A stretch of DNA of 64,000 nucleotides from the NCBI RefSeq assembly GCF_000975155.1, contig NZ_BBRG01000001.1, positions 186,001-250,000 on the forward strand. The letters run 5' to 3'. Below, one piece after another: positions 1 through 63,879 of this stretch (its first letter is position 1; every line of letters starts with the position of its first letter). The notes below the pieces were generated by a model. It worked only from the letters and a program-made list of their open reading frames with translations, ran no database searches and was not told the origin of the DNA. A program made the translations under genes and the position numbers. The DNA comes from Demequina globuliformis. Its GTDB lineage: Bacteria; Actinomycetota; Actinomycetes; Actinomycetales; Demequinaceae.

Positions 1-826
1 GCAGCTTCTTCACAGCGCCAGAGTGAATCTGCGACACCCGAGATTCCGTCACGCCCAGGATCTGTCCAATTTGGGCGAGCGTGAGGTTGTCGAAGTAGTA
101 CAGCCGCAGCACTTCTTGCTCGCGGTCCCGCACGCCCTGGATGGCAGCCGCCAACAACGCACGGGTCTCCTGCGCCTCGACGGGCGACGATGCCTCCGGC
201 AGTGTGAGGTCATGCGTCGCATCGAGTGCACCGCTGTCGCCGCCGGACACCATTCCGTCCAGCGCGGAGATGTGCGACAGCGCGACCTGCGCGCGAACGT
301 GGCGCACATCGCTTGCGTCCCAACCGATCTGCGCGGCGACGTCCTCGTCGGTCACGGGGCGCAGCAAAGTCTGCTCGAGCGCACGGGTGGCCTGTTCTAC
401 GGTGCGCGCCTTGGCCCGGACCGATCGGGGAACCCAGTCAGCCGCGCGGAGTTCATCGATGATGGCACCGCGGATGCGCTGCGACGCGTACGTCTCAAAT
501 TTGAATCCACGTTCGACCTCGAACTTCTCGACCGCGTCGATCAGGCCAAAGAACCCATACGAGACCAAGTCCGCAAGTTCGACGGTCTCTGGCAGCCGCA
601 CAATCATCCGGGAAGCAACCTGATTCACCAGAGGCGAGTAATGAGTGATGATCGCGTCACGCGCGTTCTTGCGTTCCGTCACGTCGCCGTCGCGCATCAA
701 CGCCCACGAGTCGGTGAGCGCAGGAGCGGGCGGCCCCGGAGGGGCGACAGGTCGCGCGGCCGTCGCAACTGCGGCGTGGTCTTCGCCGAATGCCTCGACG
801 GTCGTGGTTTCCCTCAGCTCGGTCAT
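1..826 (-). CDS. WhiG/FliA-type RNA polymerase sigma factor, truncated by window edge
   Basis: The reading frame starts at ATG 826 and runs off the left edge without a stop, giving 275 residues. Region 2 lies at about residues 55-135 (DLVSYGFFGLIDAVEKF, then FETYASQRIRGAIIDELR), followed by the WVPRSVR stretch that starts region 3. A C-terminal helix-turn-helix (region 4; LTLAQIGQILGVTESRVSQIH) reaches the edge. This pattern is that of sigma-28 FliA and Streptomyces WhiG, which transcribe flagellar or sporulation genes. A GAGGGG Shine-Dalgarno sits 5 nt before the ATG. The gene lies 9 bp after xerC and is probably cotranscribed. The first 40 residues are Ala/Pro-rich and not conserved. Whether it serves motility or development cannot be told here. 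Confidence 0.93.
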   Translation of the reverse strand, partial: MTELRETTTVEAFGEDHAAVATAARPVAPPGPPAPALTDSWALMRDGDVTERKNARDAIITHYSPLVNQVASRMIVRLPETVELADLVSYGFFGLIDAVEKFEVERGFKFETYASQRIRGAIIDELRAADWVPRSVRAKARTVEQATRALEQTLLRPVTDEDVAAQIGWDASDVRHVRAQVALSHISALDGMVSGGDSGALDATHDLTLPEASSPVEAQETRALLAAAIQGVRDREQEVLRLYYFDNLTLAQIGQILGVTESRVSQIHSGAVKKL

Positions 827-51141: not shown

Positions 51142-54100
51142 CTACGACACCTCCCGGTCGCGCCGGCGACGCCACGCGGCGCCGAGGACGAGGGCCGCAC
51201 CGAGGGCCACGAGCAACCCCGCGAGCCCCACCGTCGCCGGCGAGAGTGAGCCTCCCGTCACGGGCAGTGCCGGCGCCGGCGGCGATGACGGGGCCAATGG
51301 CGTGGACGTGCTGTCACATGGCAGGCCGTCACTGGTCACCCCATCAACGCACCACCCGCTGGAGCTGCCCGAGCCACCACCCGGCGGCGTCGGAATACAG
51401 TCATTGCCCTCGCAAGCGGGGTTGGCGGGCTGGAAGGCGACGTTCACGATGCTTTGGTCGCCGGCTGCCGTGACGGTCACCGAATAGGTCAGCGTCACGG
51501 TCTCACCCACCTCTAGCGGCCCTTCCCAACGCAGGTAGGGATCAGTCATGGTCACCGTGCCGACGCTGGGCTCGGCCGCCGCGTCGTTGTTGAAGTTCGC
51601 GTCGTCGAGGACATCCGTGAGGTCATCAACGACGACCGCGGCAAGGGCATCCGTGTACGGCGCGTCGCCGGTGTTCGTGGCCGTGACAGTGAACGTGACG
51701 GTGTCACCGATCTGTACGCCGCCTGCCGGAGCATCTGCACGCTTGTTGATGTCAAGGGCGGGGAGGTCGATCGGGTTCTGCGTCGAGCAGTCCGGGTTGA
51801 ACACGGCGAGCACGGTTGGCAGGTAGAAGCGCGACGTCCGTGGTGCGCTCATCGAGGGATCCACCGCGCACACGGATTCCGGCGGTCCGGTCACGGTGTT
51901 GTCGAGAACGCCGTCACCCATGGGCGGCGCGTCCACCTGGACCGAATAGGTGATCGTCACCGACTCGCCCGGGGCCAGCGCGCCAGTCCACCTCAGAGTC
52001 TCCCCCGGCACAGATACCGTCACGGTCCCGCCGGTTGCCTCAGCGTCCTCCAAGTACATGGCGTCGTCGAGGACACCGGACAGATCATCGGTGATAGTCG
52101 CGGGGTCATCAAGCGTGTACTCGAACGTGCCCGTGTTGGCGACCACAACCGTGTACTCGACCTGCTCCCCGGCCACGACTGACGCGGCGGCATCCGAGGT
52201 CTTCACAATGTCCAGCGACCGCACCGGAATTGTCACCACGCAGCCGTTGCCCTCGCAGGTGGACTCTGGCGGGCCTTCAACCACGTTGTCCAGTTCGCCA
52301 TCACCGGTCGGCGGGTCGTTGACGCGCACCGAATACGTGAGCAGGACCTCCTCCCCGGCCACGAGAGGCCCCGTCCACGTCAGGTCGGTGCCAGAGAGTT
52401 GGAATGACCCTTCGCCCGTGGAGCTGACGGCATCGTCCAGATATGTCGCGTCGTCAAGCACGCCGGACAGGTCGTCCGTGACGATCACCGGGTCGCTACC
52501 TTCGTAATCCACGCTGCCGGTATTGCGCACCGCGACCTCATACGTGACGGTTTGGTAGGGGCCAATCCAGTCATCGACATCGGACGCCTTCTCAATCGCC
52601 AACTGGCGCACCGGCACGGTCACGGTGCATTCCTCGGGGAGCCCGGCGAGCGCATCTCCTTGGGGTGGGTTGCCTGCGAAGCAGTTGGACTCGGGCGCGC
52701 CGGCCACAGTGTTGACGAGCGTGGCTCCCTCCGCGACGGGGTCGTCCATCTGCACGGTGTACGTGATGGTCACGGTTTCTCCCGCGGCAAGCGGGCCCGT
52801 CCACGTGATGACCTCTTCCCCATCATCGAAGGCGAGCGTGACGCCTGGACCCTCGGAATCAGCAGCCAGCTCATCGATCCACGTGGCGTTGTCCAACACA
52901 TCAGAGATGTCATCCCAGACGTAGGCCGGGTCTTCAGCACCGTAAGGAATGAACCCGGGATTGGTGACGGTGATCTCGTACGTCAACAGCTCGCCTGGCA
53001 CCACCTCCTCTTGGAGGGCACGCTTGGTGAGCTCGACAGTTTTGTCAGGCGACAGCACCTGGCAGTTCTCGGGATCTGCTTGCTCGTCCGGGTAGCAGTT
53101 GGACTCCTCAGGGCCTGTGACCGCGTTGAAGAGATCTCCATCCCCAAGCGACGGATCGTCAATCGAGAAAGCGTACACGAGCTCGATTGACTCGCCGCCG
53201 GCCAGTGGCCCGGTCCACGTAATGGTCTCTGAGCCCTCCGTCGACCCGTCATAGATGGGCGGGTTGGCGGGGTCCTGCACAGGGCTGGTCGTCGCGTCCA
53301 GGAACGAGGCGTCATCATCCACTTGGCTCACGTCATCGACGATCACTACTGGATCGTCATCCGTGTAGGCGCCACCACCCGTGTTGGTCACCGTCACCGT
53401 GTACTCCACGGTGCCAGTGGCGGCGATGTCCGCCGCGTCGTTGACCGTCTTCACGATGGTCAGCCCGCGCACCGTCGAGGTCGTGGTGCACTCGCTGGGT
53501 AGCTCCTCGCCAGCGCCGGGCTCCGCGCACGTCGACTCAGGCGGTCCTGTCACCGCATTGACGAGCACTCCGTCGCCTGCACCGGTGGCGGGATCGTCGA
53601 CTGTCACGGTGTAGCGAATCTCCACGCTCTCGCCTGACGCCAAAGCGCCCGTCCAGGTAAGGGTCGGGGCAACGAAACTTCCAGGGCCGGAGGCCGTGGC
53701 GGTGTTGCCGTCAACGATGGTGATGGCGTCATCCCACGTGGCGCCCTGGAGAACGTCGCTCAAGTCATCGCTCACCCGTGCGGGATCGCCCACCGTGTAC
53801 TCAAAGGCGCCGGTATTCGTCACGGTGATGACGTACTCAATGGTGTCGCCGTCCACGAACGGGCCGTCATCGGTCGTGATCTTACTTACCGCGAGCGCCC
53901 GCACCTGCGCCGTCGTCGTGCAGCCCTCCTCCTCGCCCGTGTCACACGGACCCTGGCCGTCAGGGTTGACGACCGCATTGGTGAGCACGCCATCGGCACC
54001 GTCGGGGGCATCGGCCGGATCAAGGACCGTCACCGTGTAGTGAATCTCAACGATCTCTCCCGGCGCCAACTCGCCTTCCCACAGCAGCGAGGGTTCGGTG

Positions 54101-57100
54101 TAGGTCAACGTCACCGTTGGGGTCTCATCGTTGAGGTCGACCACGGTGGGGCCGCTCGTCAGATCAGCGTCGTCCTCGACGTTCGACAGGTCATCCGTGA
54201 CCCGAGCGGGGTCGCTCGCGGTGTAGGTGTAACTGCCCGTGTTCGTCACCGTGATGGTGTACTCGATTTCCTGCCCGGGAATCACCGCGCCGCCAGCATC
54301 AGAGGTTTTCGTGACGTCGAGCGAGCGCACAGGGTCGGTGGTCGAGCACTCGGCGGCGGGGTCAGCCTCGTCGCACGAGGACTCTGGCGGACCCGTCACC
54401 GCGTTGCCGACGGCGCCGTTCCCGCCCACATGCGGATCGTCGATCGTCACGGTGTAGGTGATGATCACCTGCGTGCCGGCTGCGAGCGGGCCCTCCCATG
54501 TCAGCGTCTCCCCGGCCTCGTCCGCCGTGGTTGTCCCCACGTCAGGAACGGTGGAGTCGAGGACGAGGTTGGAGGCGTCATCCAACACATCCGACAAGTC
54601 GTCAACAATGACGGCGGGCTCGTCCTCCGTGTAGTCGCCGGATCCCGTGCTGTCGATCGTCACCGTATAGGTCACGTCATCCCCGGGCCCCACAGGGCCG
54701 CTTGCACTCGAGGTCTTGGTGATGCCCAGTGCTTTGACGCCGGTAGTGGTGCCGCAGTCGCCATCCTCTGAGTCGGTTTCGCAGTTCGACTCCGGTGGCC
54801 CCACGACGAGGTTGTCCATCTGTGAATCCACGCCCGCGGGTAGGGGATCATCCACGGTCACGTCGTAGGTAATCGTGATGACTTCGTCCACGGCGAGCGG
54901 ACCAGTCCACGTGAGCTCACCGGTCGCGTCGTCAAAGGCCACTTCTGTCTCGGGGTGGTCGGCTTGATTGCTGGCCACCTCAATCCCGTCCGGACCATCG
55001 GCGACGAGCAGGACGTCGCTCAGATCATCAGTCACGGTGGCAAAGTCTGGATCCGCATAGGCATGCGAACCGGTATTGGTCACAGTGACGGAGTACGTCA
55101 CCGTCGCGCCCGGCACCACTGCACCGTCGGGCGAGGCCGTCTTCACGATGTCGAACTGTCGCACGTCGGTTGTGGTGGTGCACCCCGGCGCGGAGGGGTC
55201 TTCACACGATGACCCCTCGGGCCCCGTCACCGCGTTGACCAGCTGGGCGCCCTGCGAGACCTCGTCATCGACGTTGACGGTGTAGACGATCGACACCGAG
55301 CCGCCGACCGCGAGGTCACCCGTCCACGCGATGGTCTCGGTCGAGGCCTCAAAGGTGGCGCCCGGATCCACTGGGTCCACGAAACCCACCCACTCGGCGT
55401 GGTTCAACACACCGTTGAGGTCATCCTCGACCGTGACATCAGTGAGGGCGGCCGAGCCCGTGTTGCTGATGGCAATGGTGTACGTCACGTCTTCCCCAGG
55501 AGACACCACACTCTCCGACGCCGCCTTCTCGATGTCGAGCTGGCTCACCGGGACGGTCACGGTGCAGCCGGGACCGGCAGGGGTGTCGGGGTCGCCGTCG
55601 TCCTCACAGGTTGACCCAGGCGGACCCACAACCGTGTTGACCAACTCGGCGCCTTCGGCGACCGGGTCGTCGAGTTCGACCTGGAATTGAATCTCGACTA
55701 CCTCTCCCACTGGCACATCGCCGGTCCAGGCGACGGTGGCGGTGTCCGCGTCGAATGCCGCTTCTGGCGGCGTGGGGGGCGTGATGAACCCCGCCCATTG
55801 GGCGTGTGTGAGCACGTCCGTGAGGTCGTCTGTCACGCTCGCGTCCAGGTACACGGTGTCGCCGGTGTTCTCGATCGCAATGGTGTAGGTCACGGTGCCA
55901 CCGGGTTGAGCGACATCCACATCCGCAGTCTTCGTGATGTCGAGAGCGCGGACGGCGACGTTGGTGGTGCATTCGGTGGACAGCGGGTCGTCGTCTTGCG
56001 AGCAGTTCGCTTCCGGAGGGCCCACAACGGCATTGTCGAGTTGCCCATTGCCGGTCCCGTCCGGCTGATCGACGATCACCGCATACTGGATCGTGACCGT
56101 CTCACCGACGTCGAGGGTCCCATCCCACGTCAACGTAGAGGTGCCGTCGAAGACCGCGTCTTCGGGTGTGTTCCCGTCGACGGAGGACGTTTCGGAGATT
56201 CCGAAGTTTGCGTCCCACGTGGCATCGTCCAACACTTCACTGAGGTCATCGTCGATGTGAGCCAACGGCACTCCGTCAGCCCCATAGGCGACTTGCCCAC
56301 TGTTTTGCACGGTGACCGTGAACACCACTTGATCGCCGGCGTCGACAAAATCGGTGGGTTCCGCCTGCTTGTTGATGGTCATGGAGCGAATGGGCACGGT
56401 CACGGCACAGTCGGGATCGACCGGGTCCTGATTGGCGTCACAGTTCGACTCGGGAGGGCCGACGACCGTGTTCTCGGCTAGCCCGTCAGCGCCTGCTGGC
56501 GGCGGGTCCGACGCCCGCACGGTATAGGTCACGGTGACCGCGTCGCCGGCAGCAAGCGGGCCCTCCCACGTCAGGATCGGCTGGTTGAACGTGGGCTGCG
56601 GCGCGGACAACGGCGTCGCCACCGCTCCGAGCCACACGGCGTCGTCGAGCACCGCACTGACGGTGTCCGTGATCACCAGCGGGTCGTCAGCCGTGTAGTC
56701 CACGTCGCCGGTGTTGGTGATCACCACCTGGTAGGTGATGAGGCCGCCTGCCACTGCGAACTCATTAGGCGACGTCTTCACGATGTCGACGGCGCGTACC
56801 GGGGTGGTGGTGGAACAGTCTGGGTTCGTGGAATCTGGCTCACAGGTCGAGCCCTCGGGCCCCACGATGAGGTTTCCCAACTCGTGGTCGCCCAAAGGCG
56901 GATCACCGACGGTCACCGTGTACGTCACGACCGTCGTCTCGCCCGCTCCTAGAGGTCCTTCCCAACTCAACAACTCCGACGCTTCGTCGAAGTCCGTGGC
57001 GCCTGGGCCCGTGCCCGGAGGGGGAACGATGGTGACGTTGTCGTCCCACTCAGCGTCGTCAAGAACCGCCGACAGGTCGTCATCAAAACTCGCCAACTCC

Positions 57101-60100
57101 GACGCGTCGTCGTAGTCGACAGCGCCCGTGTTGGTGATCTCGACGGTGTAGGTCACTTGGCCACCAGCGTCAACGCTCTCCGGGGCGACTGACTTGGCAA
57201 TCTCCAGTGCACGGATCGGCACCTCGGTCGAACACTCGCTGCGGTCGCCGGAGTCGGCACCACAGGTGGACCCTGGAGTAGACGTGACCGCGTTCGTCAG
57301 GACGTGGTCATTCGCCGGGTCGAGGACCTGGTCAACGCTAACCGTGTACTCGACTTCGACGACGGCACCCGGGTTGAGCAGCGGCGATTCCCAATGAAGA
57401 ACGTTGCCGTTGAGGTTCGCGGTGCCGGCGTCTCCCGTACCGGCCACGAGCGTCGCGGTCGGACCGGAGGCCAGCGTCGCCTCCAGAAGGACGTCCGTCA
57501 GGTCGTCATCGAAGTACGCGTAGTCCGGGGGTGCAAGAGGTGCGCCACCTGTGTTCTCGACCGTCACTGTATAAGTCAGGTCGTCTCCGGCATGGACCTC
57601 ATCGACAGGCGAGACGGACTTACTGACCGACAGAGCGCCCACGAGGGTCTCGGTCGTGCATTCCGCGGGGAACTCTCCTGTATCCGGGTCCTCGACGCAG
57701 TTGGATCCGGGCACGAGAGCCACGTTTGACATGTCGCCGTTCGAACCGGCGTCGGGCTCATCGACGATGAAGGAGAACGTCAGGACGAGCACGTCGTCTG
57801 GGGCCATCGCGCCAGACCACTCGAGGATGTCGCCGGTCACTGTCGGGTCGGGCGCGGGCGCGCCGTTGAGCACAGCCGCCGCGTCCCCCTGATACGTGCC
57901 GTCATCGACCATCTCCGCCAAGTCATCGGTGACCACCACGGGGTCAATCGTGGTCGCGCCAAAGTTTTCCGCGGTGATGGTGAACTCCACGGTGTCACCC
58001 ACGGCGACAATGCCCTCTGGAGTGACCGACTTGTCAACAATGAGGCCTTCGACGGGAACGGTCGTGAAGCACTCCTGGCCCTGAGGGTCAGCGAGCGCGG
58101 GACAGTTGGACTCCGTCGGCCCCGTCACCGAGTTCGTGAGCACGTCGCTCACGGTTGCCTCGTCGCCGTCATCCACTGGAGGCGTGTCGACCATCACGTC
58201 GTAGGTGATCGTGACGCTCTCCCCCGCGGCGAGAGGTCCTTGCCAGACGAGCCGTTCGCTCACTGCATTGAACGTCCAACTCCCCACGTCTGCAGGGATG
58301 GTCGGGGTCACCGCAACGTTGCCCACCCACGTCGCGTCGTCGAGCACATCAGTAAGGTCGTCAATGAACCGTGCGGGTGCGCCCGTCGTGTAGTCGATGC
58401 CGCTCGGATTGGTCAGCGTGACTTCATACGTCACGACCTCACCTGCAAACACCGCCGCCGGATCGCCAACGATCTCCTTGGCGATCGCGATTTCCGGCGC
58501 GGCGGTCAGCACCGGGAAGTCCTCGACTTCTCCACCAATGACGGCGCCGTAGGGTGACAAATCTTCTGTGTCCACCACGCCCGGCAGCAGTCGAATGCGG
58601 CCATATGTGTTCAGCGCATTGAGCTGAATCGGGAAAACGAGGTCAAAGATTCCAGTGGTGTTGGCAGGAATGGTGAGTGACTGTTGCTCCGTGTTCACAT
58701 CAAGAACGTCGTTGCCGTCGAAATCAATGAAGCCCACCAAGGTCGCGGCTTCGTCAGTGTTGTTGGTCACCGCGACCGGGACCACCGGGAACGTCGTGGT
58801 GTCGACAACGATCGAACCCTGAACGGCGTCTTCGTCGTCCACATTGGCCACGTCGTCACCGTCAGCGCCACCGCTGGGTGCGCCATCGAACTCCGCATCG
58901 AGACCACCTGGGAAGCCGAGCATCAGTGGAGCCTCCCCGGCGTCGGCATCGAAGTCGAGCAGAGCGTGACGCGCACCGTCCGCGTTCAGCGTGGTGAAGT
59001 ACTCGTCCGGCAAGTCACCAAAATCCATCGGCATCGCCGCCGTTGGACAGCGCGCGCCGTCGAGCGCCTCGGTAGACGCGCCATACGCGAAGAAGTCGGC
59101 ATCCCCCGTCACTGACAGCCGCCACAGGAGACCGGAGGCGTCATGATGCGCGTAGAAGTAACCGTCCTGGTCAGTGAATACCGCCGGGAATTCGCCTCCA
59201 CTGACGGCCGTACCGTCAGGAGCCTCAAGAACCCCCACATCTGCGACCGTGGCGAAGGTGCCGGCCGCAGTGTCGAACGCGACGACAGTCCACTCGTCGG
59301 TGGCACTCGGCGTGGACCCAAGTGAGTACAGGACGGGGTCGGCCGCCCCATCGGGCACCACTGCCCAGTCGCCGAGGCCTTCTGCGCCGTCGAGGTCGGC
59401 AGTGCCGCTGGCGACCACGTCGAGGAAGGTGGCGGAGCTTGGGTCGAGGTCAACGCGCGCCCACTCAACGGGGTCGCTGTCCCCGCGGGCGAGCCACAAC
59501 TGTCCAGCCGCATCGATGTCACCCGCAGTCCACGCGCCGCTGAGCGGCACAGCTGTGCCGGCCTCCATCGGGATGCCCAGCACTTGGATGGTGCCGTCTG
59601 CACCCACGCGCACAATCTCCGTGGCATCATCGCCAGTCACCGTCGCCCCGTAGAGATAGTTGTCGAGCGGGTTGTAGCCGAGCGCGTCGACCTCATCGGG
59701 ATAAGCGTCCGCGAGGAGCTCCGATTGCTCCCCGGTGACAAGGGTGACAGTCACAACGTCAACGGGGCCGGCGCCGGTGGTCATGATGCCGTCTGGCGTG
59801 CACTCGAGGGGGAAGGGCGGCACAGCGAGAATGCGGTGGTCTTCGATTTCCCCGTCCGCAGCGGGTCCGTCTGGCGTGGGGTCGTCCCATGCACCCGGAA
59901 CGATGCGCAAACGGACATACACCGATGCATCAAACGTCGTTGCCTCATCGAACGTGAGATTCGCAGTGGTCTCGCCGGCGTTCGCCGGGACCGCTGCGGT
60001 GGCTCGCTCGTCTACGGTGAACGTGCCGTCACCATTGAGGTCCACCCACCCTGCGACCGTGGCGGCGGTGTCAGAGTTGTTGGTGACGGCGACGGCGAGC

Positions 60101-63100
60101 GACACGGGAGCGTCCATGTCGAATGTGGTGCCCGGCGCAAGGCCTTCCTCGTCGGCCCCGCCTGTGGTGTCGTCCCCGCGCGCGCCCGCGCCTGGCTGAC
60201 CGTCAAACTCGTCGTCTACTGTTCCGGGGGCGCCGAGGTAGACCTCCGGGGCATCGGTGCCATCAGGGTGGATCAAACTGTGGCGCGCTCCATCGACGCC
60301 AAGGGTGGTGCCAAAGGAGTTGGGGGCGTCACCAAAATCGACGGGAATGACCGCCTCTGGGCAGCCCACAGCATCGATGGCCTGGGGCGCAGGTCCGTAG
60401 GAATAGAAGTCTGTTGCGCCACCAGCGAGTGCAACACGCCAAATCTGCCCGGTGTCGTTGCTGGTCGCGTACAGGAATCCATTGCCGTCGACCGCGACAC
60501 CGCCGATCTGCGGGGTGGCGCTGCCCCCCGTGATCGAGGTTCCATCTGGCGCGGTCAACAATCCGAGGAGTTGCACTGTCTCGAACGCCTCAGTGTCCGT
60601 ATCGAACTCCACCAACGCCCACGTGCCCCCGGTCGTGAACCCGAGTGTGTACAGGTTCCCTGAGGCCGGGTCGAAAGCCCAGTCCAGCGCCACAGACTCG
60701 ATGGCGGATGGCAACGGCGCAGTTCCCGCGGCCACTACCGACAGGAACGTGGGATCGCCGTAGGTCGTGTTGATGCGCGCCCAGGTCACCGGGTCGGTGC
60801 CGCCCGTCGCCACCCACAGGTGGTCCGCCTGGTCCATGTCGCCCAGCGTCCAGCCGTCAAGCGGCACGGCGGTCCCTGTCGAGTTGGTGGCCTCCCCCAG
60901 CTCCAGGTACTCACCGTCCCCCGTCGCGAGCACCACTGCCGGCCCGGTGTCCGCTCCGGTGCTCACTCCGTACACGTAGCCGTTGTTGGTGTTGTAGCCG
61001 GCTGCATCGATGGTGACGATGTCCTCCGCGAGCAGCGCAGACTCTCCGGTGACGAGGTTGAGACGGTAGGCATCCACGGGGTCGCCGTCGATCAGCACGG
61101 GGCCGGGCAGGCACGGGGACGGCTCGGGCACAACGCGTGCCGCCCAGTCCTCAACCTCGCCAGTGCGCACGCCAGCGCCCACGGTCGAGGTGTCCGTGGG
61201 CATCTGGTCCTCGTCCTCGTAGGCAAGGCGCAAGCGCATAAAGGTGTTGCCGAATGCGACGTCGGGAGCATTGGGGAAGGACAAGGTCACCGTTCCCGAG
61301 GAGGTGCCCGCGTCTGTAAAGGCCCGCTCGTCGTCCTCGAACGTGCCGGATTGGTCGAAGTCGACCCACCCCACCAATGTCGCGCTTTCGCCACCGTTAT
61401 TCGTCACGGGGACCTGAATGGAAGCGCCCGACTCGCCGTGGACAATGACCGGCGCCTCCGCGAAGGCGTCATCGTTGTCGGCGTCTGCCTGCGGGGATGG
61501 CTGTCCGTTGGTCTCGCGCGACACGGAGGAGCCGATCATGACCAGCGGCTGGTCGAGGTCGTTGGAGATCAGCTCGTGGTACGGCCCGCCGCTGCCAATG
61601 AGGGTGGAGTACGTGTCGGGAGCGTCAGCGAAGTCGACGCTCACTGGAGCACTCTGGCAGCGGGCTCCGTCGTTGGCCGTTGAACTGGGCCCGTAGGCAA
61701 AGAAGTTGAGGTCTGATGGATCAGAGACGTTTACGCGCCAGATGTGCCCCAGGCCATTGGTCGAGCCGTACAGGTAGCCATCGAGGTCCGCATACACCGC
61801 ACCGAACGTATTGCTGTTGTTGTTCCAGCCAGCAGCGTTGGGATCGCGTTGCGTGGCTACCCCGTTGGGAGCGATGAGACGGCCAAGTCCTTGCACGATC
61901 GTCGACGTCGACGCGCCGCTCAAGGGGTCATATGACACGAGTGCAGCACTGAAGTTATTGGTGTTCCAACCGATCGCCCACAGCGTCCCCTCAAGCCGGC
62001 CGTCCGGCGCGAACGATTCCGGAACGCTCGGGACAAAGGCCCAGTCTGCGCCAATGTTCCAGTTGCTGTTGGTGTCCGCCCGCCCGTTGTCGATGACCTC
62101 CATGAACGTGGACGACCCTGGGCGAACGTCGACTGCAATCCATCGCCACGCGTTAGGGCCTTGCGGAGCGCGCGCATAGTAGATCCCATCGGGCGAGACA
62201 TCACCGACGTTAGGAAAGGTTCCCCCAAAGGTGCCGGACGTCCAACCGGAATCCGCCCAGTCCACTTCTCCCAAGCGGATCACGTTCTGATAGTCCGGAG
62301 AGATCGCCGCAATCTCTAGGGTGTTCGCTGTCCCGGTGGAGTCAGCACTCGACACCGTCCCGTAGTAGTAGCCATCGAGCTCGTTGTAGCCCACGGCGTT
62401 CACGGTGAGGTTGTCTGGAAGTGACCCCTCGTCAAAGGAGTCTCCCGTGACCAGGTTGATCTCATACGGGTGCGTGGGGTCGCCCTGCCACAGCGTCGCG
62501 TTCGAGGGGCACTGGCCGGGGTTGACGTAGAGCACGTCCGCGTCTGCCGGCAAGGTCAGTCCGTCCGTCGTGACGTCGGAGGCGGCGTTGGTGTACGTGC
62601 CCGCCACCGTGGCGGTGACGTTGATCGACAGTGTGCAACTGACAAGCGAGTCGCCCGACAGATCGCCGGAGCCGGAGATGGTGCCACCGGTACCGGAAAT
62701 AGTGCCGTTGGTACAGGTGGTCGCGGCGTCCGGTGTGGATGAGACTTCGAGGCCAGGCGGCAGAGCATCCTCGAACGACCACCCCACCTTGGGTCCCGTC
62801 GGCACCGCATCGTCGAACGGCATGTGGGTGTTCGTCACGGTGAACGTCACTCGCGTTTGCTGTCCGACAACGTGCGTGCCCTCGAGGAAGTCCTTGTCCA
62901 ACTGTGGCGTCGCGTCCAGCACCACAGCGTTGTCCGCATGTCCGCGCAGGCTCGGCACATCCACCAGCGACAGCGAGTACTGCAGAGGGCTTCCGTCACT
63001 CACGACCGAGTTCTCGCCCACGAAGGTTGCTGTCCGCGTCATGCGGTTGAAGTTGCCATCGCCTGCCTGCACGCCAATGCCGGACGTCGCGCACGAGTCA

Positions 63101-63879
63101 GGGACCGACGCGAACATGTCGGTAGCGCCGGCTCCGCTGGTGAGCGTGATTTGCGGGTGCAACGATGTTGCGTTGTTTGTTTGGCACGTCATCGTTGCCA
63201 AGTCAATCGAGGCCATATAGGTATGGCCGGCGACGGTGGGGATGGAGGCGGCCGTTTCGAACACGACTCCCGAGGCGGCCGTGGGCGAGTTCACGACAGA
63301 CAGGGAGTAGTTGTTGGCGTCCGCCCCCAAGCCGGGCGTCTGTCCTGCGTACGGATACGAGTTGTCGTTGTACCAGCGCCCGAGGTTGAGCGACTTGAAC
63401 AGAGTCGCCGTCCACTGCGCGTTGGAACCGCATTCAGAAGCGACGGCGTCCGAGGGCAGTGCGACGTTGTTCGAGGACACGGTGACGTTGCCGTTGGCCT
63501 TGACCACGAGCCCATTGCAATTGGCGCCCAGGGCAAACGCGGGGTCCTGAGAATACGTTTGGCCGTCGTCCGCGACATATCCAGGATGGGTACCATCCCC
63601 AGGGACAGGCAGCAGCGTGTTGACGTAGCTGCCGGACTGGGCGATCTGGATGTTCTGGAAGTCCTCGATCCATGCGACGGCGGGCGGCTGCATTTGCCCC
63701 GGCGTTCCCGGAGCGGCGCTGGCTGGCGCGGACTCGACCACCGCCGCGGACACCGCTCCAGCGGTCACGAGCAGGGCAATGGCGAGGACGCTCGCGACAC
63801 GGCCTGCGGAGCCGTGCGGGTGCGTAGAGTTCCGGGCGCGACCAGACGAGCGCCGTGCCGTGGACCGCAACGTACGCAT
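51142..63879 (-). CDS. Giant sortase-anchored surface protein with GEVED modules and 17 DUF11 repeats
   Basis: A 4,245-residue secreted protein. It has a signal peptide (about 1-55), an N-terminal beta-rich region (to about 450), three modules of about 440-465 residues that pair a propeller-like segment with a GEVED domain (about 452-1793), and 17 DUF11-type repeats of about 139 residues (about 1795-4160). A Ser/Pro linker and a cell-wall sorting signal follow: LPVTG at 4205-4209, a hydrophobic helix and RRRRDR. All 17 repeats have one Cys pair near the C-terminal end. It should be a covalently attached fibre for adhesion. The sequence is very acidic. GGGAGG precedes the ATG. No sortase lies in the window. 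The 121 bp to the right edge hold no gene. Confidence 0.9.
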   Translation of the reverse strand: MRTLRSTARRSSGRARNSTHPHGSAGRVASVLAIALLVTAGAVSAAVVESAPASAAPGTPGQMQPPAVAWIEDFQNIQIAQSGSYVNTLLPVPGDGTHPGYVADDGQTYSQDPAFALGANCNGLVVKANGNVTVSSNNVALPSDAVASECGSNAQWTATLFKSLNLGRWYNDNSYPYAGQTPGLGADANNYSLSVVNSPTAASGVVFETAASIPTVAGHTYMASIDLATMTCQTNNATSLHPQITLTSGAGATDMFASVPDSCATSGIGVQAGDGNFNRMTRTATFVGENSVVSDGSPLQYSLSLVDVPSLRGHADNAVVLDATPQLDKDFLEGTHVVGQQTRVTFTVTNTHMPFDDAVPTGPKVGWSFEDALPPGLEVSSTPDAATTCTNGTISGTGGTISGSGDLSGDSLVSCTLSINVTATVAGTYTNAASDVTTDGLTLPADADVLYVNPGQCPSNATLWQGDPTHPYEINLVTGDSFDEGSLPDNLTVNAVGYNELDGYYYGTVSSADSTGTANTLEIAAISPDYQNVIRLGEVDWADSGWTSGTFGGTFPNVGDVSPDGIYYARAPQGPNAWRWIAVDVRPGSSTFMEVIDNGRADTNSNWNIGADWAFVPSVPESFAPDGRLEGTLWAIGWNTNNFSAALVSYDPLSGASTSTIVQGLGRLIAPNGVATQRDPNAAGWNNNSNTFGAVYADLDGYLYGSTNGLGHIWRVNVSDPSDLNFFAYGPSSTANDGARCQSAPVSVDFADAPDTYSTLIGSGGPYHELISNDLDQPLVMIGSSVSRETNGQPSPQADADNDDAFAEAPVIVHGESGASIQVPVTNNGGESATLVGWVDFDQSGTFEDDERAFTDAGTSSGTVTLSFPNAPDVAFGNTFMRLRLAYEDEDQMPTDTSTVGAGVRTGEVEDWAARVVPEPSPCLPGPVLIDGDPVDAYRLNLVTGESALLAEDIVTIDAAGYNTNNGYVYGVSTGADTGPAVVLATGDGEYLELGEATNSTGTAVPLDGWTLGDMDQADHLWVATGGTDPVTWARINTTYGDPTFLSVVAAGTAPLPSAIESVALDWAFDPASGNLYTLGFTTGGTWALVEFDTDTEAFETVQLLGLLTAPDGTSITGGSATPQIGGVAVDGNGFLYATSNDTGQIWRVALAGGATDFYSYGPAPQAIDAVGCPEAVIPVDFGDAPNSFGTTLGVDGARHSLIHPDGTDAPEVYLGAPGTVDDEFDGQPGAGARGDDTTGGADEEGLAPGTTFDMDAPVSLAVAVTNNSDTAATVAGWVDLNGDGTFTVDERATAAVPANAGETTANLTFDEATTFDASVYVRLRIVPGAWDDPTPDGPAADGEIEDHRILAVPPFPLECTPDGIMTTGAGPVDVVTVTLVTGEQSELLADAYPDEVDALGYNPLDNYLYGATVTGDDATEIVRVGADGTIQVLGIPMEAGTAVPLSGAWTAGDIDAAGQLWLARGDSDPVEWARVDLDPSSATFLDVVASGTADLDGAEGLGDWAVVPDGAADPVLYSLGSTPSATDEWTVVAFDTAAGTFATVADVGVLEAPDGTAVSGGEFPAVFTDQDGYFYAHHDASGLLWRLSVTGDADFFAYGASTEALDGARCPTAAMPMDFGDLPDEYFTTLNADGARHALLDFDADAGEAPLMLGFPGGLDAEFDGAPSGGADGDDVANVDDEDAVQGSIVVDTTTFPVVPVAVTNNTDEAATLVGFIDFDGNDVLDVNTEQQSLTIPANTTGIFDLVFPIQLNALNTYGRIRLLPGVVDTEDLSPYGAVIGGEVEDFPVLTAAPEIAIAKEIVGDPAAVFAGEVVTYEVTLTNPSGIDYTTGAPARFIDDLTDVLDDATWVGNVAVTPTIPADVGSWTFNAVSERLVWQGPLAAGESVTITYDVMVDTPPVDDGDEATVSDVLTNSVTGPTESNCPALADPQGQECFTTVPVEGLIVDKSVTPEGIVAVGDTVEFTITAENFGATTIDPVVVTDDLAEMVDDGTYQGDAAAVLNGAPAPDPTVTGDILEWSGAMAPDDVLVLTFSFIVDEPDAGSNGDMSNVALVPGSNCVEDPDTGEFPAECTTETLVGALSVSKSVSPVDEVHAGDDLTYTVTVENTGGAPLAPPDYAYFDDDLTDVLLEATLASGPTATLVAGTGDAGTANLNGNVLHWESPLLNPGAVVEVEYTVSVDQVLDPANDHVLTNAVTSTPGSTCGADSGDRSECSTEVPIRALEIAKSVAPESVDAGGQVTYTVEITNTGAVDYDDASELASFDDDLSAVLDDAEWDDNVTIVPPPGTGPGATDFDEASELLSWEGPLGAGETTVVTYTVTVGDPPLGDHELGNLIVGPEGSTCEPDSTNPDCSTTTPVRAVDIVKTSPNEFAVAGGLITYQVVITNTGDVDYTADDPLVITDTVSAVLDDAVWLGAVATPLSAPQPTFNQPILTWEGPLAAGDAVTVTYTVRASDPPPAGADGLAENTVVGPPESNCDANQDPVDPDCAVTVPIRSMTINKQAEPTDFVDAGDQVVFTVTVQNSGQVAYGADGVPLAHIDDDLSEVLDDATWDANFGISETSSVDGNTPEDAVFDGTSTLTWDGTLDVGETVTIQYAVIVDQPDGTGNGQLDNAVVGPPEANCSQDDDPLSTECTTNVAVRALDITKTADVDVAQPGGTVTYTIAIENTGDTVYLDASVTDDLTDVLTHAQWAGFITPPTPPEAAFDADTATVAWTGDVPVGEVVEIQFQVELDDPVAEGAELVNTVVGPPGSTCEDDGDPDTPAGPGCTVTVPVSQLDIEKAASESVVSPGEDVTYTIAISNTGSAALTDVTVEDDLNGVLNHAEWVGFVDPVDPGATFEASTETIAWTGDLAVGGSVSIVYTVNVDDEVSQGAQLVNAVTGPEGSSCEDPSAPGCTTTTDVRQFDIVKTASPDGAVVPGATVTYSVTVTNTGSHAYADPDFATVTDDLSDVLLVADGPDGIEVASNQADHPETEVAFDDATGELTWTGPLAVDEVITITYDVTVDDPLPAGVDSQMDNLVVGPPESNCETDSEDGDCGTTTGVKALGITKTSSASGPVGPGDDVTYTVTIDSTGSGDYTEDEPAVIVDDLSDVLDDASNLVLDSTVPDVGTTTADEAGETLTWEGPLAAGTQVIITYTVTIDDPHVGGNGAVGNAVTGPPESSCDEADPAAECSTTDPVRSLDVTKTSDAGGAVIPGQEIEYTITVTNTGSYTYTASDPARVTDDLSNVEDDADLTSGPTVVDLNDETPTVTLTYTEPSLLWEGELAPGEIVEIHYTVTVLDPADAPDGADGVLTNAVVNPDGQGPCDTGEEEGCTTTAQVRALAVSKITTDDGPFVDGDTIEYVITVTNTGAFEYTVGDPARVSDDLSDVLQGATWDDAITIVDGNTATASGPGSFVAPTLTWTGALASGESVEIRYTVTVDDPATGAGDGVLVNAVTGPPESTCAEPGAGEELPSECTTTSTVRGLTIVKTVNDAADIAATGTVEYTVTVTNTGGGAYTDDDPVVIVDDVSQVDDDASFLDATTSPVQDPANPPIYDGSTEGSETITWTGPLAGGESIELVYAFSIDDPSLGDGDLFNAVTGPEESNCYPDEQADPENCQVLSPDKTVELTKRALQEEVVPGELLTYEITVTNPGFIPYGAEDPAYVWDDISDVLDNATWIDELAADSEGPGVTLAFDDGEEVITWTGPLAAGETVTITYTVQMDDPVAEGATLVNTVAGAPESNCFAGNPPQGDALAGLPEECTVTVPVRQLAIEKASDVDDWIGPYQTVTYEVAVRNTGSVDYEGSDPVIVTDDLSGVLDDATYLDDAVSSTGEGSFQLSGTDLTWTGPLVAGEEVLLTYSVRVNDPPTGDGELDNVVEGPPESTCEGNGCVVTIPVRSLDIVKTSDAAASVVAGEQVEYTVVVANTGTFEYTLDDPATITDDLSGVLDDAMYLEDAEATGGTVTVSVPGETLRWTGALAPGESVTITYSVQVDAPPMGDGVLDNTVTGPPESVCAVDPSMSAPRTSRFYLPTVLAVFNPDCSTQNPIDLPALDINKRADAPAGGVQIGDTVTFTVTATNTGDAPYTDALAAVVVDDLTDVLDDANFNNDAAAEPSVGTVTMTDPYLRWEGPLEVGETVTLTYSVTVTAAGDQSIVNVAFQPANPACEGNDCIPTPPGGGSGSSSGWCVDGVTSDGLPCDSTSTPLAPSSPPAPALPVTGGSLSPATVGLAGLLVALGAALVLGAAWRRRRDREVS
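51250..51267 (-). other. LPVTG sortase sorting motif of the giant surface protein
   Basis: These codons encode LPVTGG, 41 residues from the C-terminus, followed by a hydrophobic helix and an arginine-rich tail, the standard three-part cell-wall sorting signal. Confidence 0.9.
51390..58497 (-). repeat. Array of 17 DUF11-type coding repeats
   Basis: Each unit of about 418 bp encodes the pattern L(D/E)I-x-K(T/S), then G-x-x-V-x-Y-T-V-x-V-x-N-T-G, then DDL(S/T)DVLDDA, W-x-G-x-L-x-x-G-E, and VGPPES-x-C followed by a second Cys and TTxPVR. Units differ widely, so the array is ancient rather than a recent DNA duplication. Confidence 0.88.
58500..62523 (-). repeat. Three GEVED-containing coding modules
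   Basis: The modules lie at about 61130-62523, 59815-61130 and 58500-59815. Each begins with a Cys, a VTGE/D box and a YN...YLYG(A/T) propeller-like run, and ends with (V/M)DFGDAPD, a D-x-D-x-x-G-x-F calcium-like loop and GEVED/GEIED. Confidence 0.8.

Follow-up and report, generated by a model that had tools for sequence, protein, structure and literature searches.

The window analyzed here is a 64,000-nucleotide stretch of Demequina globuliformis DNA (assembly GCF_000975155.1, contig NZ_BBRG01000001.1, positions 186,001 to 250,000 of the forward strand), which encodes on its minus strand a giant cell-surface protein of 4,245 amino acids (aa) with a stalk of 17 tandem repeats. Residue conservation and a structure model make it likely that each of the 17 repeats makes two cross-links of its own within the fibrillar stalk, an isopeptide bond and a disulfide. 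An invariant Lys-Asp-Asn triad is probably that of an intramolecular isopeptide bond and the main covalent lock of the repeat, and a pair of cysteines probably forms the disulfide. An earlier note on this stretch, made from the letters alone, had drawn attention to the cysteine pairs but overlooked the triad, which is present in 17 of 17 repeats. Its proposal that the pairs stiffen a very long fiber is plausible, with the qualification that the triad probably provides the principal lock.

The stalk comprises repeats 1 to 17 (aa 1799 to 4169; window positions 58485 to 51373, minus strand). Their alignment contains six columns that are identical in all 17 repeats, namely, Lys, Asp, Trp, Asn, Cys, and Cys, at a mean repeat-to-repeat identity of 38% (range, 25 to 55%). 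Every repeat holds exactly two cysteines and none outside these two columns. For 34 cysteines placed randomly on 17 repeats, the probability of exactly two in each is ~3e-9, a value that does not yet count the sharing of alignment columns. The rule of one cysteine pair per repeat and the modest identity between repeats, both claimed in the earlier note, are confirmed by this alignment, and the gap between the two cysteines, given there as 4 to 30 residues, measures 4 to 26. The flanking sequences are looser than described: the first cysteine, said to lie usually in SNC or STC, does so in 6 and 5 of the 17 repeats, respectively, and the second, reported mostly before TT or ST, directly precedes one of these in 9 of 17. 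The count of pairs was also incomplete, as Cys4177/Cys4188 follows repeat 17.

The repeats had been filed as DUF11, which was rejected in favor of the sister family DUF7927. The Pfam model DUF7927 (PF25549) matches 17 stretches with 881 bits for the whole protein, and each repeat scores above the curated cutoff of the family (47 to 80 bits versus 31). DUF11 (PF01345) matches the same region more weakly, with 291 bits in 9 stretches; single-repeat matches to it reach an E value of ≤0.001 in 16 of 17 repeats and exceed its cutoff in 14 of 17. With every repeat above the DUF7927 cutoff and weaker matches to DUF11, the repeats are assigned to the former. The NCBIfam model TIGR04226 (“isopeptide-forming domain-containing fimbrial protein”) matches at 167 bits. 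DUF7927 is listed as a predicted isopeptide family in a 2025 survey, with Lys125, Asp161, and Asn225 given for A0A6G8FG97 at spacings of 36 and 100 (PMC12617251). In the stalk, the Lys-Asp spacing is 34 to 40 (mean, 37) and the Lys-Asn spacing is 97 to 115 (mean, 106), i.e., the triad occurs in 17 of 17 repeats at about the spacing of the family. All of the repeats share the triad with DUF7927 and pass its cutoff, and no difference from the family was found.

The structure of repeats 7 and 8 was predicted with AlphaFold2 from an alignment of 87 two-repeat rows taken from the window and its relatives, which gave a predicted local distance difference test score (pLDDT) of 95.9 and a predicted template modeling (TM) score of 0.87. 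In the numbering of the model, the triad Asn lies in a strand spanning positions 100 to 107, Cys1 (113) comes after that strand, and Cys2 (127) stands immediately before the last strand (128 to 133), while the first strand of the next domain starts at 136 and carries its Lys at 140. The cysteine positions thus flank the last beta-hairpin of a confidently modeled fold. Foldseek matched the model to 9IFR with an E value of 3.4e-8, a TM score of 0.70 to the target, a root mean square deviation of 3.6, and 24% identity. This entry is the solved structure of a DUF11 domain, renamed CLIPPER, that has a Lys-Asn isopeptide bond and, in its last strand, a CTTC disulfide (PMC12617251), and the modeled stalk repeats match its CnaA-like fold. 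Each stalk repeat is a DUF7927 domain with a predicted CLIPPER/CnaA-like fold. The 9IFR structure also makes the description of DUF11 domains as mainly generic surface repeats, used in the earlier note, out of date (PMC12617251). The highest-ranking Foldseek matches of the stalk model were integrins and factor XIII; with TM scores of <0.4, they were set aside as generic matches to multiple immunoglobulin (Ig) domains. Searching the sequences of solved structures gave no close template; the best match was 5MKC (the Jo/In domain), with an E value of 0.056.

The search for relatives covered 44 genus-level genomes, of which 13 have the family, 297 order-level genomes with 87 positives, and 397 phylum-level genomes with 90 positives, mostly weak matches. 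The model used to detect repeats stops short of the cysteines, and the wider survey used a model built from its matches; repeat detection is therefore independent of the cysteines. With the linker defined as the stretch from the triad Asn to the next repeat, the 403 distinct repeats of the window, genus, and order contain two cysteines per linker in 352 cases, four in 10, and none in 41. No linker count is odd, meaning that both cysteines are gained or lost jointly, and the repeat bodies contain no cysteine at all. Independent sites would predict ~74 single-cysteine repeats versus the 0 found. A tree of 431 repeats, phylum members included, requires 12 changes of the cysteine state, and the pair is common to nearly all Demequina repeats.

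The spacing around the pair is uneven in its variability. In 16 window repeats, Asn is followed by Cys1 after 10.0 ± 0.35 residues, and Cys2 by the next Lys after 13.1 ± 0.5 residues; these arms sum to 23.1 ± 0.6 residues, compared with 23.1 ± 0.5 in 170 Demequina repeats. The distance between the cysteines is 11.7 ± 4.9 in the window (5 to 27 positions, i.e., 4 to 26 residues between), and the repeat period is 140 ± 6.5 in the window versus 134 ± 6 in the 170 Demequina repeats. In the proposed arrangement, the isopeptide bond would join the Lys near the start of the repeat (strand A) to the Asn near its end (strand F), with the Asp assisting, and the disulfide would close the last hairpin between the end of strand F and the start of strand G. 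Pulling force would then pass from Lys through the isopeptide bond to Asn, along 10 residues to Cys1, through the disulfide to Cys2, and along 13 residues to the next Lys, so that ~117 of the 140 residues of a repeat, the variable loop among them, would be shielded. Placed in series, the two bonds would fix a covalent path of 23 residues per repeat. At 0.36 nm per residue, each repeat would extend by at most ~8 nm with both bonds in place, ~12.5 nm with the isopeptide bond alone, and ~50 nm with neither. More tentatively, a path independent of repeat length might yield uniform, nearly inextensible units whose variable hairpin loops, bearing no force, could diversify freely. In pilins, isopeptide bonds are known to prevent mechanical unfolding either wholly or in part, and disulfides to reduce the contour length (PMC8355295).

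Several points weigh against such a stalk. Since repeats arise by duplication, the 403 counts are not independent, and relatedness inflates the contrast with the expected number of single-cysteine repeats, although the tree still requires 12 changes of state. Linkers with a single cysteine occur in two distant phylum-level members (L107 and L117). Three order-level arrays from other families (L084, L087, and L088) keep the triad while the pair is mostly or wholly absent. VKOR, the DsbB-like partner known from Actinomyces oris, was not found in the genome of D. globuliformis. The fixed arm lengths may just reflect the lengths of beta-strands dictated by the fold, and spacing alone is for this reason no proof of a mechanical role; the load path, moreover, assumes end-to-end pulling.

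The three arrays are the kind of homologue, lacking the pair but keeping the fold, that the earlier note had named as telling against its claim. As they retain the triad without the pair, the pair is dispensable for folding and was rejected as a folding requirement; judged by this distribution, it is an optional staple, which does not bear against a disulfide. In the linkers of these arrays, a Pro-rich stretch such as ATPPTGPPITPPEVTTEHPVPGF stands in place of the cysteine hairpin. As for VKOR, it is likewise missing from Corynebacterium diphtheriae, and in other actinobacteria MdbA is an established agent of oxidative folding, whether or not VKOR is present (PMC9974433). The genome of D. globuliformis encodes two thioredoxin-fold proteins, whose motifs are CPIC and CYYC and whose membrane or lipoprotein signals were judged by eye. 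These DsbA-like proteins are found at C8:1617089 (L095) and C6:58136 (L096).

A disulfide within each repeat is favored because the linker count is never odd and because a lone pair exists in repeat 1 of L084, an array that has no cysteines in its remaining repeats. This pair, with no cysteine neighbors in its array, is most simply closed inside one repeat. Of the two arrangements offered in the earlier note, the intradomain latch is thereby supported, indirectly, by the even linker counts, isolated pairs, hairpin-flanking positions, and two DsbA-like CxxC proteins, whereas the clasp between repeats is disfavored by the lone pair and was rejected as the principal interpretation. Cys2 does lie near a domain boundary, only ~13 residues before the Lys of the next repeat, as would suit cysteines that clasp neighboring repeats or neighboring stalks. 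Such clasping is nonetheless quite improbable, given not only the lone pair but also the joint presence or absence of both cysteines within one linker and the model, in which both lie beside the final two strands of a single domain. A degenerate or unused triad, with the disulfide as the sole covalent lock of each repeat, is unlikely too. Working isopeptide residues are missing from some DUF11-type domains (PMC12617251), but an unused triad would hardly explain why Lys, Asp, and Asn are kept in 17 of 17 repeats at 38% mean identity and persist in cysteine-free relatives.

Two further explanations deny the pair a structural role, and each has a very small chance of being correct. The short-loop pairs CEGNGC and CEGNDC look by eye like metal or redox motifs, and the cysteines might accordingly bind metal or act as a reversible redox switch; this is at odds with a loop that ranges from 4 to 26 residues and is not conserved in sequence, and with the absence of a conserved His or additional Cys nearby. 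The pair could also be a neutral leftover of one duplicated ancestral repeat, as tandem repeats readily duplicate and nearly all Demequina repeats have it. Against this, both cysteines are kept in every stalk repeat at 25 to 55% identity, and no single-cysteine intermediate appears among the 403 repeats despite several gains and losses of the pair.

Isopeptide domains that also carry a disulfide are known already, and the protein is another surface stalk of this type, with both cross-links predicted. Disulfides were counted in 41.3% of actinomycetotal isopeptide domains, and DUF7927 is not singled out among the disulfide-rich families in the main text of that survey (PMC12617251). The CLIPPER domain of 9IFR (Acinetobacter silvestris B9T28_05395) shares with the stalk repeats its fold class, the Lys-Asp-Asn order, and a disulfide (predicted here) near the last strand, and it too comes from tandem repeats in the stalk of a GEVED-containing fibrillar adhesin. 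In it, however, the disulfide is a tight CTTC bulge within the last strand, whereas the pair of the stalk repeats spans a loop of variable length that connects the last two strands, and the anchor is OmpA-like instead of a sortase motif; the repeats described here also score best as DUF7927. FimP of Actinomyces oris and SpaA of C. diphtheriae likewise consist of Ig-like domains with isopeptide bonds and disulfides and are exported and sortase anchored (PMC3485203), with the bonds in the present protein being predicted. They are three-domain pilins polymerized by sortase, whereas here a single chain of 4,245 aa contains 17 stalk domains. CshA-type fibrillar adhesins resemble the protein in their distinct N-terminal region, GEVED domains, repetitive stalk, and C-terminal anchor, but the head here contains three DUF6923 modules and a DUF7933 domain, and Pfam searches gave no match to the CshA N-terminal domain. 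What the analysis adds is the strict even-number rule for cysteines over ~400 repeats and the proposed fixed 23-residue covalent path. More than 400 natural repeats in which the predicted disulfide is swapped in or out while the triad stays make it testable what a disulfide adds mechanically to a domain already locked by an isopeptide bond.

The even number of cysteines extends to every cysteine-bearing domain of this 4,245-aa actinobacterial surface protein. All 48 cysteines fall into domain-wise even sets (four in the N-terminal region, two in DUF7933, two in each DUF6923 module, 34 in the stalk, and two at the C terminus), and in this the stalk does not stand out from the rest of the protein. 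The C-terminal pattern CVDG..GLPC recurs in the four-cysteine linkers of relatives. All three DUF6923 modules, and 14 distinct modules in relatives, have one cysteine near each end. The model of module 2 is all beta (pLDDT, 84.7), and its Foldseek matches are almost all beta-propellers; a reasonable guess is that the end-to-end pair may be a disulfide that clamps the propeller ring shut. No mention of DUF6923 was found in the literature searched.

By its sequence, the protein is probably a very long cell-wall-anchored fibrillar adhesin, with adhesion as a putative role. Within the first 1,800 residues, Pfam identifies a DUF7933 domain together with three DUF6923 and GEVED modules, and the DUF7927 repeats come after them (Table 1). 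The three DUF6923 modules, of which module 2 was modeled as a beta-propeller, are a candidate binding head. The layout of a sortase-anchored protein is complete, with an export signal (judged by eye), an LPXTG-type motif (LPVTG, at aa 4205), a membrane segment, and a basic tail, and two sortases are encoded in the same genome. No Pfam family matched aa 60 to 320. The four cysteines of this region recur at similar positions in Demequina relatives, and it is a possible binding domain.

Table 1. Features of the giant surface protein and their positions in the window
Feature	Residues	Position	Strand	Basis
Open reading frame (ORF), 4,245-aa giant cell-surface protein (export signal, head, 17-repeat stalk, LPVTG anchor)		51142-63879	minus	ORF and Pfam
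N-terminal hydrophobic export signal region, ASAAP at end	aa ~28-56	63712-63798	minus	read from sequence
N-terminal region without family	aa 60-320; Cys 121, 150, 232, 263	62920-63702	minus	Pfam, relatives' Cys
DUF7933 domain (predicted isopeptide family)	Cys389/Cys415	62563-62907	minus	Pfam
DUF6923 module 1, predicted beta-propeller	Cys457/Cys741, at both ends	61585-62526	minus	fold by homology to module 2
DUF6923 module 2, predicted beta-propeller	Cys923/Cys1173	60289-61128	minus	structure model and Foldseek
DUF6923 module 3, predicted beta-propeller	Cys1360/Cys1611	58975-59817	minus	fold by homology to module 2
Stalk repeat 1 (DUF7927)	K1801 D1840 N1916, Cys1926/Cys1937	58045-58485	minus	alignment
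Stalk repeat 2	K1950 D1985 N2052, Cys2061/Cys2074	57634-58044	minus	alignment
Stalk repeat 3	K2087 D2125 N2196, Cys2206/Cys2216	57208-57633	minus	alignment
Stalk repeat 4	K2229 D2267 N2336, Cys2346/Cys2355	56791-57207	minus	alignment
Stalk repeat 5	K2368 D2405 N2470, Cys2480/Cys2491	56383-56790	minus	alignment
Stalk repeat 6	K2504 D2544 N2616, Cys2626/Cys2637	55945-56382	minus	alignment
Stalk repeat 7	K2650 D2684 N2748, Cys2758/Cys2772	55540-55944	minus	alignment, structure model
Stalk repeat 8	K2785 D2819 N2882, Cys2892/Cys2900	55156-55539	minus	alignment, structure model
Stalk repeat 9	K2913 D2951 N3023, Cys3033/Cys3042	54730-55155	minus	alignment
Stalk repeat 10	K3055 D3093 N3159, Cys3169/Cys3178	54322-54729	minus	alignment
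Stalk repeat 11	K3191 D3229 N3301, Cys3312/Cys3320	53896-54321	minus	alignment
Stalk repeat 12	K3333 D3371 N3441, Cys3451/Cys3464	53464-53895	minus	alignment
Stalk repeat 13	K3477 D3515 N3585, Cys3595/Cys3606	53038-53463	minus	alignment
Stalk repeat 14	K3619 D3656 N3723, Cys3733/Cys3751	52603-53037	minus	alignment
Stalk repeat 15 (4-residue loop)	K3764 D3802 N3865, Cys3875/Cys3880	52216-52602	minus	alignment
Stalk repeat 16 (26-residue loop)	K3893 D3931 N3994, Cys4004/Cys4031	51763-52215	minus	alignment
Stalk repeat 17	K4046 D4085 N4146, Cys4156/Cys4161	51373-51762	minus	alignment
Extra C-terminal pair, CVDGVTSDGLPC	Cys4177/Cys4188	51316-51351	minus	sequence
LPVTG sorting motif, then hydrophobic segment and RRRR tail		51253-51267	minus	sequence

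Across Demequina, the gene is patchy in distribution and unstable in length, with DUF7927 repeats in only 13 of 44 genomes and 2 to 31 repeats per genome. A protein of Demequina sediminicola is a relative at 68% identity (single-protein scan of genome contigs). In another Demequina relative (L049; G016:C8:225500-245000), an open frame of 5,690 residues contains 31 such repeats, some with very short cysteine loops of 2 residues between the cysteines.

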